From: Bacteroidota bacterium
Lineage (GTDB): Bacteria; Bacteroidota; Ignavibacteria; Palsa-1295
Assembly: GCA_021324735.1 (NCBI GenBank)
Contig: JAJPIO010000018.1
Span: forward strand, 62,001-126,000
DNA: 64,000 nucleotides
Direction of reading: 5' to 3'
A program made the position numbers and the translations under genes. Shown here piece by piece: positions 51,030-59,567 of the stretch (the stretch's first letter is position 1; every line of letters begins with the position of its first letter). The notes beneath the pieces were generated by a model. The model ran no database searches, was not told where the DNA came from, and was given only the letters and a program-made list of their open reading frames with translations.

Positions 51030-54000
51030 CTATCTTACTCGCGCGAATTTACCTTTTATCTCCTGCACCGAGTTATTTGCTTTTACGGTCAATCGATAAA
51101 AATAAACTCCATTTGCTACTTCATCGCCGCCATCGTCGCGTCCATCCCACCATACCTCATGATAACCTAAGCTGGTAGGACTACCGGTACCCCCTTTTAA
51201 GAACCCGAATGTCTGCGTTGGATCGGCAGAAGGAAATGACATCGTACGTATCCTGCGGCCGCTTACCGTGTAAATATCGAGCGCAACTGACTCCGCAAAG
51301 GCGACACCACGAATTTCGTAGGCGATGAACATATAATCCTTCGTGAAGGGATTGGGATAAGACCCCAACACGCCGACACTGAACCCGTTTGAAACATGCA
51401 CGTCGAGTTCTTTGGGTGGATTATTACTGCGGCCATTATCATCGGTCGTCTGGACTGTTATCGTATGCGTACCCGGAGAAAGAGAAGGCTCCGCACGAAG
51501 ATTAATGGTAGTGGCCGTTCGGCCCGAATCCAATATCACATATTCTGAAGGCGACAGAATTCGATTGTCTATCTTCATGATCGTCTTGCCAGGGGTAATG
51601 TCAATACCATTCGCATCCTGTAAGACGGCATGAATATGCGGCTGTGGCGGCACCTCGCCATTGTTCGAGAATACCTGCCCCTCGACGGTAATATCGACCA
51701 TCGGATCGCGGGTATCTGTATTGTATGCAATTGCGAACGTACCCAGCGAAGTAAGCTTTGCGGTCAAGCTCTTCCCTACCACCGAACTCGAGAGTTTATT
51801 CCACAACTTGGAGCGATCGTCCATTCGATAAACGAACAAGCTATTCGCTGGATAGCGAGCAAGAAGAGAATCGATTCGAAACGTTAAGGTCGAGGCAGAG
51901 TCTACAAGCGGGATCGCACCGAGCGAATCGCTAACTACTCGCAAACTCGAGTATAGCTTGCCGGTATTGGTATACAGTGGCAGGAAGTGAATATCCGGCT
52001 GGATTGTCGCAATCGGAGCGTAGCGCCGATCTAACCGAATGACATCCGCCGAAATATTACTTTCAGCAGTGGGTGACAAGCTCAGGATCGCCTCATCATT
52101 GCTAAAATGGATTGCAGCGGGAATTTGCCCATCGAGTGTGGTCCCTATTCCTTTCTGGTATGCAGCAGCAGCCAGCGGATAATCGATAGCTATGGTTGAA
52201 TCATTGGATAACAGACTATCTCGAAGATTCAAAGCGCTATTACCAGCGTCCGGGCTAACCGCGAAAACAAGCGTCGATGAGTCAAGCGATGTAGGCGAAA
52301 CTGGAATGCTTACCATCACGCTACCATGCGCCGGAACGCCACTTACAACAGTGCTTCCCAATATTTTTGATGATGCCGAACGAACGTCCAGAAGCGACGC
52401 CGTGACCGAATTGACCGGTGACATTCCCCAGTTGTAAATGGGCTCGCTCCACGCAAGCCCATTCTTGGAAGAGACCAGTTTACCCGTTAAGGTGTGATGT
52501 CCTGCATCTTTGGCAATGGAAGGATCGGACGCCGCGCCGACAATTATCGAAGTAGAATCCGACGTGATGGTTGTAGAACCAGCGGTTATTGTAATGGTAG
52601 CGACGATCTTATCTCCAGCGATCAACCCAGCACCGGAAAGCTGCGTATGATAGCGGTCCTTCCCACCAGTAATTGCCATCGACTGAGACACGGTGCGCAT
52701 CGTAACCGAACCGTTCGCGGCAGTGGAATATATATTGAAATTTGCTATGACACTCGTGATCGGTTGAGGCGACTGAACGGCGGCGCTAAAATCTATATTC
52801 AACCCCACGGGCAGTGGTCGTGGCTCAAAATCAAGCTCGGTCACTCGTGTATCCGAGATCGTAACATCTTCGTCCGTAGCAGCAAATTTATTCGATGCGT
52901 TGCTCGATACCACCACTCGATAGGAACCGCTCGATATCTGCGTATTAGGCACATTATCTGTAAACGAAAAAACACCATTGGAAACCGGTGTAGTCATTAC
53001 GTGCGGCGGCACAAGAGGGCTTCTCTTGTTATCCACCAATTCAAGCGTGGCACTTCCCTGCCCGATCGACGTCGTACCGTTTATGGTAACGGTACCGGCG
53101 GGTTGAATGACGCGATTCGACAACGTCATACTCGCTTTGTCCGTCGGCACGTTCGGTGCGAGCATTGGATCACCCAACGTGTGATAGCATAGCACCAGCG
53201 TTGGTGGAATGAGATCGCCCATCAGTGTGCGCGATAAATAATCGACTTTGCCAGCGATTATTTTATCAGCGATAGACCCAGCTACGGAATCATAATAATG
53301 TGGAATGATCGCCTCCACCAATTTCCTGTCGTTCAACTCCCAGCCAAAACTGGTCGTACCCATACACGCGATCGATCCGGCAACGGGTTGATTTTGCAAG
53401 GTATTAAGAATACCGACATACTTGCCATCGTAGGTCGCGGTAAAACAGGTAAGGCTGAATACAACGGGATATTTCCCTTCGTTGTGGAATCGAGAAATAT
53501 CGCTGTTCTCTAAGATCGATCGCCCGGTGCTATCGACGAGATCGTCCCACACGGCTGTCCCACCGTGACCAAAGTAGGCCAGCAACCCGACACCGGCATT
53601 GACCGTATCGATGAGCGTTTGATCGGTACCACGATAGGGAGATTGCGCGACCGTGGATTGACGGAGTGAACTGACCCACGGCGGCACCGGCCCTGTTAAC
53701 AGGTTATCGATATCGACATCGAAGCTACCGCCGGCGCCAACGAAGAGCGCGCGGTCTTTCCAGGCGCCGGGACGTACCGGATCGGTCTCGAACTCCTGTA
53801 ATTTCGCTAAATAGATCGCATCCCCACCGGCGTCTTGTGTAGCCAAGCGGCTGATGGTAATATCCGGTATAAAATCGTCGCCATCGAGCATGGCGTACCA
53901 TTCGTCCGCAGCGACATCACCTTCCAAATATGCCTGTATGTATGGCGCCGGTACCTGATCGGGGGGAGTATATTGCTGTGGATCATCCGTGCCTTCATGA

Positions 54001-56225
54001 GTGACTCCGACCAGCATAGCATATTTCGGCGGGTCCTGCCAATTATGATAGGCATACGTTAAAAACGCCTTGATAGCATTGGCCGAACGAGCACCATAGC
54101 GAAATTCGTCGTAGATGTTCGCAACGTCCACGATCTTCGTCGATACATGATTGTGTGAAGCCCGATAGTCCGCCAGATCCTGCAACGGCACACGCGCTCC
54201 GTTATGGGTCTTCGAAAGATGATCGCGATTGGTAATAATTAGATATTCACCGGCATTCGAAGGCGACGTGAGACCTGCGAAATCATCGGTAGAATATTTA
54301 TACGGTTTAAGCTTGGTGGAATCCGTTACCGCAATAAACTCATCAGAGGCGCTGCTGATATTGATCTGAAAAATGGCTTTTGCGCTTCTCGGAACATTGG
54401 GATTGGATGTGATCACAATATTCGAAAGCTTCGAGACTCCCTTTCGATAGATGGAAATATCGGTGCGAGCAAAATTCTGAAGAGTAAATTGATATAGCCC
54501 CGTTGTTGCGGTGGGCGGAGCGCGAAACGTCAACTGGTCCTGATAGGCATAGTACATGCGATTGTACTTGATATCGATCCAGTTGACACCGAAGCGGCAA
54601 CCAGCAACATCGGTATCGCGCTGCTGTGCGAACGTGATCGTGATCGGCGCAATACCACCGCTCGAATCGGCCAGATTTACACCAAGCAACTGCGCTGTTG
54701 GCAGGATCGCAAATCGCTGCGAGGCAGTATCGGTCGACAAAAACTTTGGCGTCTGACTATCCCACGTACCATGCAATACAAAATGCCCGTTCACGGAAAC
54801 AAGCGCGTCGTCTTCGTTGGGCACATTGGGTAGTTGATTTCCTTTTGCGTCCGTCGTACCTGGATCGAAATGGGAAATGCCGTGCAGAGCTACTCGAAAT
54901 GAAACGGGCCGGTTCGTGCGAACATCGGGAAACGGGACGACGGTATGAGCTGTGTACGTCGATTGGTATCCCTGCCCCGTCGAGAGGATCGCCATGAAAT
55001 CATGGTCGCGAAGATCGCTTCGCTGATTGATATCCGAGATCTCCAGATTATCGTGGATATTATTCTCTTCGTAATGGATCGTACTTGCGAACGAGCTATC
55101 TTTTAGATCGACATAAAAACTATCGCGAGGATAGATACTCTTATTAGCGGTACGGATTTCACCCGACTCTTCCACCATTCGCTTTACGCCATCCGGCGGT
55201 ATGGGAGAATAATGGCTGCCCCATACTAAATAATAGATATTATCCTTCGTATCAGGGTCGTAATAAAAGTCCCCGATGGTACCAGGCCCATCATAGTGTT
55301 TTTCTTCGCCGTAAAACTCGAAGTAATCGTTGGGATCGAAGTGCCCATCCTGATGATCGAAGACGTATACGGCGACCTGTTGCCCTCGATTAATTATCCG
55401 CAACGTCTTCGGATCGACCGTCGATGGATCGATTCCAAAATTGCGGACATCATCGTACGTAATATGATAAATACCGCTCGTACGGATATGCATGCGGTAC
55501 ACCTTACCATCATCGGATTGAATACCTGGCAGCCGTTGCACATCGTTACTCGATTGAATGCGGCTCCCCTTCGTGCCGGAAGCGGAGCCTACCCGTGACC
55601 TAAAGACCGATGACGATACTTCAAACGGCTCGTGAAGATTGGTAACAGAAGAATACGCTAACCCTTCAGGATCGGTGATCTTTACGACGATCTTTTTAGC
55701 GTATCGCAGCACCCCGACACCGCGATCCATAAAGCCAATATCGAGGCGCGAAATATCAGCCGCCCGCATTCGGCCAACATAGTGAAGCGATGCATAGCCA
55801 ATACCGTGGTGGATATTGCCAACAGCAGTCGTTCGGTGGACGATCGGCGTGGGCCTGCCATTATCTGCAACATCCTGCGCGATCACACTCGATACCTGAA
55901 GATTTGCAGCAGAAATTGCCGTATCCTGATGTGAGATGACAGAGACGGTCGCGTGCCGCGAGACCCGAAGAGAGAATCCCAATTCAGCGAGCGGATCCCC
56001 AGTATATAATTGCGCGGCAAAAGGCTTTAAATGAAGAATACCATTGATGGTATCGAACCGGGGGGCGGGCACCGTGATCTCGAGCAAAACGGAATTACCG
56101 GAGCGGTTTATCTCCCGAATCCCGCACGAAGTAAACGATGGATCAGCGCGAGCAATAGTAACGAGCAGTAAAATACTGATCGTAACGGCAAACCAAGACC
56201 CGCCTGAGCGGTCACATCGACTCAT
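51030..56225 (-). CDS. porU: PorU-like type IX secretion C25 peptidase (sortase)
   Basis: The 1731 residues form a gingipain-type C25 peptidase: a signal sequence, an N-terminal beta-rich region, then the peptidase domain with His887 in LLAYFGHGGTAVWDDL and Cys927 in VVFSLTCFTATYDG, 40 residues apart. After a long beta-rich region the C-terminus (SYPNPFTKDYMFIAYE to NGVYFYRLTVKANNSVQEIKGKFARVR) is a FlgD-like/T9SS-type domain. PorU removes the C-terminal signal from cargo and attaches it to the surface. It is much longer than the Porphyromonas protein (about 1,150 residues). porV follows directly. Confidence 0.88.
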   Translation of the reverse strand: MSRCDRSGGSWFAVTISILLLVTIARADPSFTSCGIREINRSGNSVLLEITVPAPRFDTINGILHLKPFAAQLYTGDPLAELGFSLRVSRHATVSVISHQDTAISAANLQVSSVIAQDVADNGRPTPIVHRTTAVGNIHHGIGYASLHYVGRMRAADISRLDIGFMDRGVGVLRYAKKIVVKITDPEGLAYSSVTNLHEPFEVSSSVFRSRVGSASGTKGSRIQSSNDVQRLPGIQSDDGKVYRMHIRTSGIYHITYDDVRNFGIDPSTVDPKTLRIINRGQQVAVYVFDHQDGHFDPNDYFEFYGEEKHYDGPGTIGDFYYDPDTKDNIYYLVWGSHYSPIPPDGVKRMVEESGEIRTANKSIYPRDSFYVDLKDSSFASTIHYEENNIHDNLEISDINQRSDLRDHDFMAILSTGQGYQSTYTAHTVVPFPDVRTNRPVSFRVALHGISHFDPGTTDAKGNQLPNVPNEDDALVSVNGHFVLHGTWDSQTPKFLSTDTASQRFAILPTAQLLGVNLADSSGGIAPITITFAQQRDTDVAGCRFGVNWIDIKYNRMYYAYQDQLTFRAPPTATTGLYQFTLQNFARTDISIYRKGVSKLSNIVITSNPNVPRSAKAIFQINISSASDEFIAVTDSTKLKPYKYSTDDFAGLTSPSNAGEYLIITNRDHLSKTHNGARVPLQDLADYRASHNHVSTKIVDVANIYDEFRYGARSANAIKAFLTYAYHNWQDPPKYAMLVGVTHEGTDDPQQYTPPDQVPAPYIQAYLEGDVAADEWYAMLDGDDFIPDITISRLATQDAGGDAIYLAKLQEFETDPVRPGAWKDRALFVGAGGSFDVDIDNLLTGPVPPWVSSLRQSTVAQSPYRGTDQTLIDTVNAGVGLLAYFGHGGTAVWDDLVDSTGRSILENSDISRFHNEGKYPVVFSLTCFTATYDGKYVGILNTLQNQPVAGSIACMGTTSFGWELNDRKLVEAIIPHYYDSVAGSIADKIIAGKVDYLSRTLMGDLIPPTLVLCYHTLGDPMLAPNVPTDKASMTLSNRVIQPAGTVTINGTTSIGQGSATLELVDNKRSPLVPPHVMTTPVSNGVFSFTDNVPNTQISSGSYRVVVSSNASNKFAATDEDVTISDTRVTELDFEPRPLPVGLNIDFSAAVQSPQPITSVIANFNIYSTAANGSVTMRTVSQSMAITGGKDRYHTQLSGAGLIAGDKIVATITITAGSTTITSDSTSIIVGAASDPSIAKDAGHHTLTGKLVSSKNGLAWSEPIYNWGMSPVNSVTASLLDVRSASSKILGSTVVSGVPAHGSVMVSIPVSPTSLDSSTLVFAVSPDAGNSALNLRDSLLSNDSTIAIDYPLAAAAYQKGIGTTLDGQIPAAIHFSNDEAILSLSPTAESNISADVIRLDRRYAPIATIQPDIHFLPLYTNTGKLYSSLRVVSDSLGAIPLVDSASTLTFRIDSLLARYPANSLFVYRMDDRSKLWNKLSSSVVGKSLTAKLTSLGTFAIAYNTDTRDPMVDITVEGQVFSNNGEVPPQPHIHAVLQDANGIDITPGKTIMKIDNRILSPSEYVILDSGRTATTINLRAEPSLSPGTHTITVQTTDDNGRSNNPPKELDVHVSNGFSVGVLGSYPNPFTKDYMFIAYEIRGVAFAESVALDIYTVSGRRIRTMSFPSADPTQTFGFLKGGTGSPTSLGYHEVWWDGRDDGGDEVANGVYFYRLTVKANNSVQEIKGKFARVR

Positions 56226-56640
56226 GCGAGACTGTTAGGTTCTGACGAGAAACCAAATCGAATTACAGAATAAGCTATACTGACGGTCTTACACAGGGGC
56301 AATGTGAAAACCCGGCGAGATGAATTTCCCGCTATTTCAACACAAAATTAACAGGAATTCAGTTCGATAACTCCCCTCTTCCGCATTTACAAATCACCGT
56401 CCTATGCCGACAACTATGTCCCGGAGGAGCTTGCCCTCAGCTTGTCGAAGGGACGAAAGGAAATAGCCGCCCATTTGTTCGTATATTGTGCCTAGTGTAA
56501 TAGGCACAACGTGCCCTACCCTGTCCTGACGTCATCCTGAGCGGAGTCTTTGACGCGGTCGATGTCTGAACTTGGATTTGTTCCGTCCGCTATATGACGT
56601 GTTTTTGAGTTACACAAACTGTAAGAGACTGGAGGTCAAT
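56226..56640. other. Repeat-rich intergenic region between porU and DUF4236
   Basis: No gene is seen in 415 bases. The region holds several palindromes: CCCTCAGCTTGTCGAAGGG (56434-56452), a 9-bp inverted repeat TTGTGCCTA-GTGTAA-TAGGCACAA (56486-56509) and the sequence GTCATCCTGAGCGGAGTC (56531-56548). These resemble dispersed palindromes of Bacteroidota genomes. GTCTGAACTTGGATTT at 56564 resembles the inverted repeat near 58061. Confidence 0.55.
56486..56509. repeat. 9-bp perfect inverted repeat
   Basis: TTGTGCCTA and TAGGCACAA are separated by GTGTAA. No T run follows, so it is not a terminator for either flanking gene. Confidence 0.55.
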
Positions 56641-57015
56641 ATGTCTTTTCGATATCGAAAACGGATCAAACTACTCCCCGGTATCCACCTCAATATCAGC
56701 AAGAGTGGCATTTCAACATCGGTAGGCGTGCGTGGTGCAAGCATGACGTTCGGCAAACGCGGTACTTACGTGAATGCTGGAATACCAGGCACTGGCATCT
56801 CCTATCGCGAAAAAATCCAACGAGGAGAAATCTCCGCAGAAGAACCTGCCCATCAAATGGCAAGGCAATCTGTATCGCATCATCATCTTCACTGGTGGAA
56901 GATCGCACTGTTCTTCGCTACAATGATCCTTATTGGGCTAACAAAGATGACATTGTCATCGGACTATTTTGGCTTGGCTGGATCGGGTATTGGCTATTCC
57001 TCTTTGTACGATTAG
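56641..57015 (+). CDS. DUF4236 membrane protein
   Basis: The ATG at 56641 with GGAGGT seven bases upstream is the likely start, giving 124 residues. The first ~55 residues match DUF4236: MSFRYRKRIKLLPGIHLNISKSGISTSVGVRGASMTFGKRGTYVNAGIPGTGISYREK. The rest has a membrane span (WKIALFFATMILIGLTKMTL). The domain is found in many bacteria, often in genes near transporters or mobile DNA. The function is unknown. It is followed 30 bases later by the channel gene. Confidence 0.85.
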   Translation: MSFRYRKRIKLLPGIHLNISKSGISTSVGVRGASMTFGKRGTYVNAGIPGTGISYREKIQRGEISAEEPAHQMARQSVSHHHLHWWKIALFFATMILIGLTKMTLSSDYFGLAGSGIGYSSLYD

Positions 57016-57045
57016 GAATAAGAAGCGTTAGGAAAGGAGCGCAAC

Positions 57046-57918
57046 ATGGCAACAACTGAACGTGAATCCGCGTGGCTCAACCTTCGGCATCACGCCCACC
57101 ACCTTTTGCATTCGGAAGCAGAAGAACACCATGACCATTGGTCGCCCGCACATTGGACAAAAATAATTCTCGCTACCATCATTATGCTAAGTATGGTCTC
57201 AGTCATTCTCGAGACTGAGCCAGAACTGGAACAGACATATCATGAGTATTTTTTTGGTTTCGAGATCATTACAGTCGTTATTTTCACGATCGAGTATATC
57301 CTACGAGTTTGGTGTGTCGTGGAAGATGACAAAGAAGGCAAATCCCATCCATTCATGGTCCGATTGAAGTATGTGGTTAGCCCGCTCGCTCTCGTCGATC
57401 TGATCGCCGTTCTTCCCTTTTATCTTCCGGCGCTTCTCGGGAATGTCGATCTTCGTTTTATTCGAATTCTTCGCCTGATTCGACTGGTCCGCGTAATGAA
57501 GCTCGGACATTATTCGAAATCGCTCACCCATGTTTCTCACGTAATTAAGAAGAAGCGATCGGAACTGGCGGCATCGCTCTTTATTCTCGCAATACTGCTT
57601 CTCTTTTCTTCTACCGTCATGTATTACGTCGAGCATGAGAGCCAACCACAAGCATTTCGTAGTATTCCAGCTGCGTTCTGGTGGGGCATTGAAACGTTGA
57701 CCACCGTTGGATATGGCGACGTCGCTCCTATCACTCCACTAGGTAAGGTCTGCGCAGCGATCATTGCGATCCTGGGTATCGGTCTCTTCGGCTTACCGAC
57801 AGCCCTCATCGCGACCGGCTTCATGGAAGAGGTCCAGCATAAACGCGATAGGCAACTCTGCGAGGAGTGTGGGAAGAAATTAGAAGCGATTGAGTTGCAG
57901 AGTAGACCAGCGACGTGA
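57046..57918 (+). CDS. Voltage-gated potassium channel-like protein
   Basis: The 290 residues form a six-helix ion channel. The S4 voltage sensor has Arg at 137, 140, 143, 146 and 149 (every third residue, RFIRILRLIRLVRVMK), the pore has the K+ filter TTVGYGD (219-225), and S6 is VCAAIIAILGIGLFGLPTALIATGF. A His-rich N-terminus (RHHAHHLLHSEAEEHHDHW) and a short C-terminal coil with CEECGKKLE complete it. It should gate K+ in response to membrane potential in the inner membrane. AGGAAAGGAG precedes the start. Both DUF4236 and the channel lie in a repeat-rich stretch. Confidence 0.9.
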   Translation: MATTERESAWLNLRHHAHHLLHSEAEEHHDHWSPAHWTKIILATIIMLSMVSVILETEPELEQTYHEYFFGFEIITVVIFTIEYILRVWCVVEDDKEGKSHPFMVRLKYVVSPLALVDLIAVLPFYLPALLGNVDLRFIRILRLIRLVRVMKLGHYSKSLTHVSHVIKKKRSELAASLFILAILLLFSSTVMYYVEHESQPQAFRSIPAAFWWGIETLTTVGYGDVAPITPLGKVCAAIIAILGIGLFGLPTALIATGFMEEVQHKRDRQLCEECGKKLEAIELQSRPAT

Positions 57919-57955
57919 AGAAACCCTTACTGAAAATGCAGACGAAGATATTACG

Positions 57956-58040
57956 CTCCGTTAGGAGCGAAATAGTTGTAGCCCCCGATTTTAATCGGGG
58001 TTGAGAAGGTGAAAGATTATTTCAAACTCCGTTAGGAGCG
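57956..58040. repeat. Direct repeats of a palindrome, CTCCGTTAGGAGCG
   Basis: The 14-base unit is identical at 57956-57969 and 58027-58040; each unit is a hairpin (CTCC-GTTA-GGAG). A further hairpin CCCCGATTTTAATCGGGG lies between. This is the build of REP-type repeats known in Bacteroidota. Confidence 0.7.
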
Positions 58041-58060
58041 CAATATTTTCGAGTTTAATG

Positions 58061-58154
58061 TCTGAACTGGGATTTCTTGGATGTACTGGATGTTTGGGAT
58101 GTGGCACGAACGCTCCCACTAATCCCAAGTATCCCACCCATCTCAGTTCAGATG
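58061..58154. repeat. Imperfect long inverted repeat upstream of the TIR gene
   Basis: TCTGAACTGGGA at 58061-58072 faces TCTCAGTTCAGA at 58141-58152, and further inside GGGAT/ATCCC-type blocks pair. A related copy of its end (TGTCTGAACTTGGATTT) lies near 56563. Confidence 0.6.
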
Positions 58155-58219
58155 CTCGGCCTTCAGTACACAGGTAGAAGATATGAACTGCGAGCAAGAG
58201 AAAATGTCTTAAACGAAAG

Positions 58220-59206
58220 ATGGCCTATCATGCTACCCCCGAACAGGTTGTTCGTACCCTCTTCACTTATATGGAAAAGAGAGGGTTCGATAATCTGCTT
58301 CACATACTTACTATGGCAAGTCCAACCATACTCTTCGAGGAGCATGATAATTGGAATGGTGGTATAGACTTTTACTCGCTTTGTTTAGAAATTCCCACAT
58401 CGTTATATGCAAGCCTTGAAGACATTGAAGTGGTTGAAAATCTATTCAACGAGTCCCTGGAAAAACTTTTTCGTGATAAATCCGGTGATGTGCTGAATCG
58501 GGTTCGATTTCGACCTCAACTTGAAGATGGACATCTAAATTCTTCTCCCGTTTTGAAAGATGATGCTTATCGAATTTGGAAAGACGGATTTAGACTCTTC
58601 ATCAGCCATTCGAGTGTTCAAAAGGATGTAGCTTTAAGCTTACAAAAAGAGTTGGCCGATTATGAGATAAGTTCTTTCGTGGCGCATGTTGACATCGAGC
58701 CAAACTCATTTTGGCAAAGCGAGATTGAAATTGCATTGCGTTCGATGCATGCCATGGTCGCAATAATCAGTCCCGATTTTCAAAAGAGTATTTGGGCAAA
58801 TCAGGAAATTGGATTTGGATTGGGACGAGATATTTCAATCATGTGTGTATTAGCAGGCTCTGAACCGAAAGGATTTCTTGGGAATCGTCAAGGAATTTCC
58901 ATTAATAATGCAAAACAAACCATTCTTGATCTTTTAATAAAATCAAGTTCAACGCACCTTCAGATGAGGAAGGCTCTTTGTCGCTCAATGAAGTTCGTCC
59001 GATCATTTAACGAGGCTCGTGCAAGGCTTGATCTATTACCGCCTGAAGAAGCTTATACAGCAGAGGAGAAAGAGTTTTTAAGACAAAGCCTGACACACGG
59101 GCAAATCTTCCGCGCCCCTGACGTTCTAACTAGAGTTCAGAAACTTATAGGAGACGCGCAAAAGAGCGTCCAACCTGTGCAATCTGTGGATGATTTACCT
59201 TTTTAA
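58220..59206 (+). CDS. TIR-domain protein with unknown N-terminal domain
   Basis: The 328 residues have an N-terminal domain of ~120 residues with no sure family (RTLFTYMEKRGFDNLLHILTMASPTILF, then WNGGIDFYSLCLEIP). A TIR domain follows at about 122-215: GFRLFISHSSVQKDVALSLQKELADYEISSFV, VDIEPNSFWQSEIEIALRSMHAMVAIISPDFQKS, then IWANQEIGFGLG with Glu196, which aligns with the catalytic Glu of TIR NADases. A helical tail follows. It is visibly more AT-rich than its neighbours and lies in a repeat-rich stretch, signs of lateral transfer. TIR NADases act in antiphage defence, but no partner gene is seen. Confidence 0.85.
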   Translation: MAYHATPEQVVRTLFTYMEKRGFDNLLHILTMASPTILFEEHDNWNGGIDFYSLCLEIPTSLYASLEDIEVVENLFNESLEKLFRDKSGDVLNRVRFRPQLEDGHLNSSPVLKDDAYRIWKDGFRLFISHSSVQKDVALSLQKELADYEISSFVAHVDIEPNSFWQSEIEIALRSMHAMVAIISPDFQKSIWANQEIGFGLGRDISIMCVLAGSEPKGFLGNRQGISINNAKQTILDLLIKSSSTHLQMRKALCRSMKFVRSFNEARARLDLLPPEEAYTAEEKEFLRQSLTHGQIFRAPDVLTRVQKLIGDAQKSVQPVQSVDDLPF

Positions 59207-59567
59207 TTTTGTCACGGAGCGGTAACATATGTCCCTTCGGGCATTATTTTCAAAATGACGGCAAGTGATAATAGCACGAATTGCTTGTAGTTGTAATTGG
59301 CCCGTTTAGACTCGATGCGCCAGATATTTTTTTGAGTCTTAGATGGACAATAGAAATCGGATTTTAAAATATATAATTATCAAAATAATTGCCGGATTTG
59401 GGAACTTTTTGACCTTGTTGCTTTGTTCTATTTATTTGCGGTTCGGTATGTTTGCTTGAGAAAGTGAGTTACTACTGGACCGCTAAGCGGTCCCGATCCT
59501 ACCTGGTGATACCTCCGGAGATCGCCAGTACACCAATAACTATTAATTCTTAATTCATAATTATTAA
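59207..59567. other. Intergenic stretch between the TIR gene and secA
   Basis: No gene is seen in 361 bases, which are AT-rich. A perfect 8-bp inverted repeat GGACCGCT/AGCGGTCC lies at 59477-59493. A second palindrome CTGGTGAT-AC-CTCCGGAG-ATCGCCAG lies at 59504-59529. The last 50 bases are poly-AT (ATTAATTCTTAATTCATAATTATTAATTA). I see no clear terminator for secA. Confidence 0.5.

Follow-up and report, generated by a model that had tools for sequence, protein, structure and literature searches.

Stand-alone TIR proteins such as AbTir, BtTir and SpbK of Bacillus subtilis are each encoded by a single gene and have a tryptophan and a glutamate four residues apart on the catalytic helix of the TIR fold. 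SpbK is described as a NADase with abortive infection (PMC12847820). A different group of systems, which includes AbpAB, Retron-Eco8 and Hachiman, couples immunity to ssDNA and SSB biology, and AbpAB and Retron-Eco8 are known to be triggered by SSB and ssDNA complexes (PMC10732053). The C-terminal tip of SSB (SSB-Ct, DDDIPF in E. coli) is the docking motif for proteins of replication and repair, more than 14 in number, and the carboxylate of its terminal Phe is a key contact (PMC5872125).

The protein described here is encoded in a stretch of 64,000 nucleotides from a Bacteroidota bacterium, called the window below. It shares the TIR fold, the Trp-Glu pair and the single-gene organisation with AbTir, BtTir and SpbK, but it has a different N-domain, an added helical domain at the C-terminal side and an SSB-Ct tip, and AbTir is only about 20% identical to it. 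Matches to Thoeris ThsB (E 3e-4) and type III ThcB4 (32 bits against a cut-off of 220) are weak and confined to the TIR domain. Membership in Thoeris was rejected, since these scores are far below the family cut-offs and no ThsA or other paired effector adjoins the TIR gene, whose neighbours are an ion channel gene, a DUF4236 gene and secA. With SSB the protein shares the acidic residues, the hydrophobic residue, the Pro and the Phe at a free C-terminus on a disordered linker, but it has no OB fold (no match to PF00436, so it is not a member of the SSB family) and the tip is joined to a TIR protein instead. While phage SSB activates AbpAB, Retron-Eco8 and Hachiman, here the putative immune protein itself bears the tip of the host SSB. 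This tip, which was absent from the original prediction for the locus, is the real novelty, and no description of a TIR or defence protein with an SSB tip was found in a literature search that covered few subscription journals.

Domains of the TIR protein

The TIR gene occupies positions 58220 to 59206 of the plus strand, as do all parts of the protein given below, runs from ATG to TAA, encodes 328 residues and is present in a single copy in its own genome. The TIR domain comprises residues 123-234 approximately (58586..58921) and has the motifs FISHSS, FVAHVDIEP and WANQEIG. The PFAM model TIR_2 covers residues 127-230 with an E value of 4.7e-13 and 50.1 bits, above its cut-off of 28, and the best PDB fold matches of the predicted structure are TIR chains. 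The predicted catalytic residue Glu196 (codon 58805..58807), with Trp192 four residues upstream, aligns with the Glu of the catalytic alpha-C helix of AbTir and BtTir and is invariant across the alignment of the family. The TIR residues are therefore present as originally claimed, and the Glu on which the NADase proposal depended stands at the expected place. A helical domain at residues 228-310 (58901..59149), seen in the AF2 model and common to relatives, is followed by a disordered linker at residues 311-322 (59150..59185; pLDDT about 50 in AF2), which varies among relatives, and by the tip VDDLPF at residues 323-328 (59186..59203), which ends in the free C-terminus.

The N-domain, residues 1-100 (58220..58519), is a compact alpha+beta domain named here the DNWNGG type. 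It folds confidently when modelled alone (AF2 pLDDT 88), and its residues W45, G47 and G48 are nearly invariant among relatives. Searches of Pfam, NCBIfam, PADLOC and the PDB sequences gave no family for residues 1-120, and a comparison of the N-domain with PDB folds gave nothing at E<=0.001 (top match E 0.012, TM 0.40). On the strength of these sequence and fold searches a known partner domain was rejected, in agreement with the original statement that the region matches no family; the loose likeness to N-terminal regions of abortive-infection proteins, which had also been proposed, is supported by none of the scans. The proposal of a new architecture stands in part: the N-domain is undescribed, but the combination is not a one-off, because 23 of the 63 full-length relatives have the same N-domain. 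The architecture is widespread, and the N-domain of the family is modular, most other relatives having a different one.

Relatives and their neighbours

The family was searched for in genomes and plasmids, with 96 matching proteins from many phyla, some of which are the same gene found twice. The TIR domain is found in all of them, often with the motifs FVAHEDIEP and W-x-x-QE-V/I-G, and the helical C-domain in most. Genes adjoining the relatives, which were chosen by eye and have no control count, include type I restriction-modification genes (loci L031, L043 and L046), a methylase/HSDR gene (L080), an MmeI-type gene (L047), a SIR2 gene (L026) and OLD/AAA genes (L034 and L090). The best reading of the sequence evidence is that the TIR protein is a likely NADase in phage defence, because the Glu is present and relatives adjoin restriction-modification, SIR2 and OLD/AAA genes; this part of the original proposal stands, while the idea of a one-off architecture does not.

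A phage origin of the TIR gene was considered and rejected, as no match was found among 50,697 phage records. For the Klebsiella homologue, a copy in E. coli was sought and none was found.

The SSB tip of the TIR protein

The own genome's SSB also ends in VDDLPF, so that all six terminal residues of the two proteins are identical, and the TIR protein has the acidic residues and the hydrophobic-Pro-Phe sequence of SSB-Ct motifs at its exact C-terminus. The C-terminus reads -PF in 42 of the 63 full-length relatives and [DE][ILV]PF in 34; such ends occur in 2 of 1842 other ORFs of the same loci, one of which is an OB-fold SSB-like gene. In 44 tip bearers, a set selected for the final Pro and Phe, there is hardly any variation in the last five residues while the preceding linker varies, with an acidic residue at position -4 in 36 and at -5 in 38. 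The tip is found across phyla and on two unrelated N-domain types.

The residue before PF is that of the host's SSB in 22 of 24 genomes, against a permutation mean of 12.4, an agreement partly confounded by shared ancestry, as the TIR tree gives only two well-supported independent contrasts. In Kerfeldbacteria the TIR protein and the SSB have nine residues in common (TISIEDIPF), and the pair from Opitutia has a common V. That the C-terminus of the TIR protein mimics the SSB tip is well supported by these sequence comparisons. About one third of the relatives are without the tip, many of them with another C-terminal extension, and the tip is therefore not essential to the TIR architecture.

Eight tip-less relatives (L024, L027, L028, L031, L032, L041, L060 and L070) have a common alternative C-terminal extension, which reads roughly GSFGFNG..P..YG.GL..HLNR.TG.

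Other proteins with the tip

At the DNA level, the pattern DD[hydrophobic]PF followed by a stop occurs exactly three times in the 3.55 Mb of the own genome: in the SSB gene, in the TIR gene and in a gene for an OLD-family nuclease. In 80 genomes of the class it occurs at 76 places. The permuted pattern D-h-P-D-F has 24 DNA matches there, only two of which close ORFs of at least 100 residues.

Carriers were read from 95 stretches, mainly of genomes with several matches, together with loci returned by pattern searches; because this sample was selected, the counts show recurrence and not frequency. The Bacteroidota survey gave 63 SSB, 32 DUF3127 proteins (OB-fold) and 24 carriers of other kinds. 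As two of these 24 are one and the same gene, 23 distinct proteins remain: seven replicative DnaB helicases, eleven immune-type proteins and five that are unassigned or probably due to chance. The immune-type carriers are the TIR protein of the window, the OLD protein (L129), a GajA (L171, E 4e-251), two Abi_C proteins (L143 and L163), a TIR-like protein (L136), a SIR2 protein (L199, E 2e-86), two caspases (L211 and L252), a kinase (L237) and a HEPN protein (L167) that scores slightly below the PFAM cut-off. The tip is kept in homologous pairs, such as the caspases, which are 56% identical, and the Abi_C proteins, which are 36% identical. Three plasmid-borne relatives of Abi_C, from Pseudomonas, Comamonas and Enterobacter, also retain the -PF end. 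The tip is missing from the four plasmid GajA relatives that were compared, so it was rejected as a conserved feature of GajA and may be specific to a lineage.

These carriers suggest that the SSB tip is a common address tag in immunity, acquired independently by unrelated effectors (TIR, SIR2, caspase, Abi_C, OLD/Gabija, HEPN and kinase) for a seat at the replication and repair hub, a generalisation that we hold at even odds. If it were true, these effectors would have one shared way to sense or strike phage replication. The SSB interactome would be one hub where many immune systems may watch this process, and C-termini that match the host's SSB tip would give a simple rule for finding new defence proteins.

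Several observations concern individual carriers. The OLD-family AAA/TOPRIM nuclease of the own genome ends in DDDLPF (L129:211-1515, on contig C6 near 28.5 kb). The caspase-domain proteins, of 467-469 residues and from two Bacteroidota genomes, end in VDDLPF or SDDLPF (L211:531-1931 and L252:619-2025), and their gene is likely an uncharacterised defence gene. DnaB of several Bacteroidota ends in DDVPF, DDDIPF or DDLPF (L222, L223, L238, L239, L244, L255 and L256), the protein of L239 being a divergent paralogue. The tip is very frequent in the small OB-fold DUF3127 proteins of about 115-140 residues (L141, L147, L184, L192, L281 and others), which look like a second SSB-type protein.

Proposed function of the tip

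We infer, with a probability of roughly 0.58, that the protein is a stand-alone TIR NADase that is docked on the partners of SSB and kills the cell once phage replication upsets this hub. The VDDLPF tip, with its free carboxylate on a flexible linker, would bind host proteins at their SSB-Ct pocket, which is basic and hydrophobic; candidates are replication, repair and recombination proteins of the RecO, PriA, ExoI and primase type. In this way the TIR protein would be held at the SSB interaction hub. If a phage reorganises or attacks the hub, or if ssDNA and SSB flood the cell, the TIR protein may be released or concentrated; the TIR domains would then oligomerise and cleave NAD+ via Glu196, and the infection would abort. 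The hub is a plausible watch post because AbpAB, Retron-Eco8 and other systems respond to phage SSB or damaged replication. The docking, the NADase activity, the trigger and the role in phage defence are all put forward here as predictions, and a tag of six residues taken from the SSB of the host would be a directly testable answer to the question of how this TIR family senses phages.

The main rival of docking is that the tip is an integrated decoy, in which phage proteins aimed at the host SSB tip would bind the TIR tail and activate the TIR domain directly, so that docking on host proteins is not needed. The tip does copy the host's own SSB, as is required of a bait, and it is found on many unrelated effectors. 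Since a decoy of this kind would bind host partners too unless it is shielded, and since no phage protein acting against the SSB tip was identified in the analysis, we consider this mechanism unlikely, though it has the strongest claim among the alternatives.

A small fixed motif at the end of a long flexible linker would also suit autoinhibition, in which the tail folds onto the N-domain or C-domain of the same protein, so that the TIR domain stays inactive until the tail is displaced. The tip occurs on two unrelated N-domain types, however, and members with the same N-domain and without the tip exist; the tail is disordered in the AF2 model, and the agreement with the host SSB tip is not predicted. 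Autoinhibition is thus improbable. The end -LPF could instead be a protease tag that keeps a toxic TIR protein scarce, by analogy with Streptococcus mutans, where ClpXP degrades SsbA via a C-terminal LPF. The same source describes LPF recognition as strain dependent, with no such recognition seen in other bacteria (PMC5143411), and neither the acidic residues conserved at -4 and -5 nor the agreement of I, L or V with the host SSB is predicted by an LPF degron. This weaker explanation is slightly less probable again. That the tip is due to chance or is a functionless inherited remnant on an ordinary TIR effector is very improbable: its absence from about one third of the relatives and from the four plasmid relatives of the tip-bearing GajA would fit, but 34-42 of 63 relatives retain it despite the divergence of the linker, the permuted-pattern control is almost empty and the tip is common to unrelated families.

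Genomic context of the TIR gene

One feature of the locus counts against docking of a defence NADase on the SSB hub, namely that the TIR gene sits between housekeeping genes and no recognisable defence island surrounds it. The gene is AT-rich relative to its neighbours, as originally described, with a GC content of 41.3% against 50.2% in the window and 54.1% in secA. Two genomes of the same genus lack it. In one of them (G001) secA directly adjoins the homologue of the gene at 51030-56225, and in the other (G003) this homologue is at the expected place just downstream of secA; therefore about 3.3 kb including the TIR gene are missing there. The segment absent from these sister genomes (56226..59567) holds the DUF4236 gene, the ion channel gene, repeats and the TIR gene, and supports the earlier description of the region as an insert. 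The palindromic repeats reported before the gene were likewise found: two copies of CTCCGTTAGGAGCG are present upstream of it (57956-57969 and 58027-58040), and the sequence has no occurrence in 100 shuffles.

Within the absent segment, the DUF4236 gene and the ion channel gene, which is of the voltage-gated type, occupy positions 56572-57918 of the window. The CTCCGTTAGGAGCG palindromes are accompanied by a hairpin, CCCCGATTTTAATCGGGG, near position 57985, and together they may be a dispersed repeat element.
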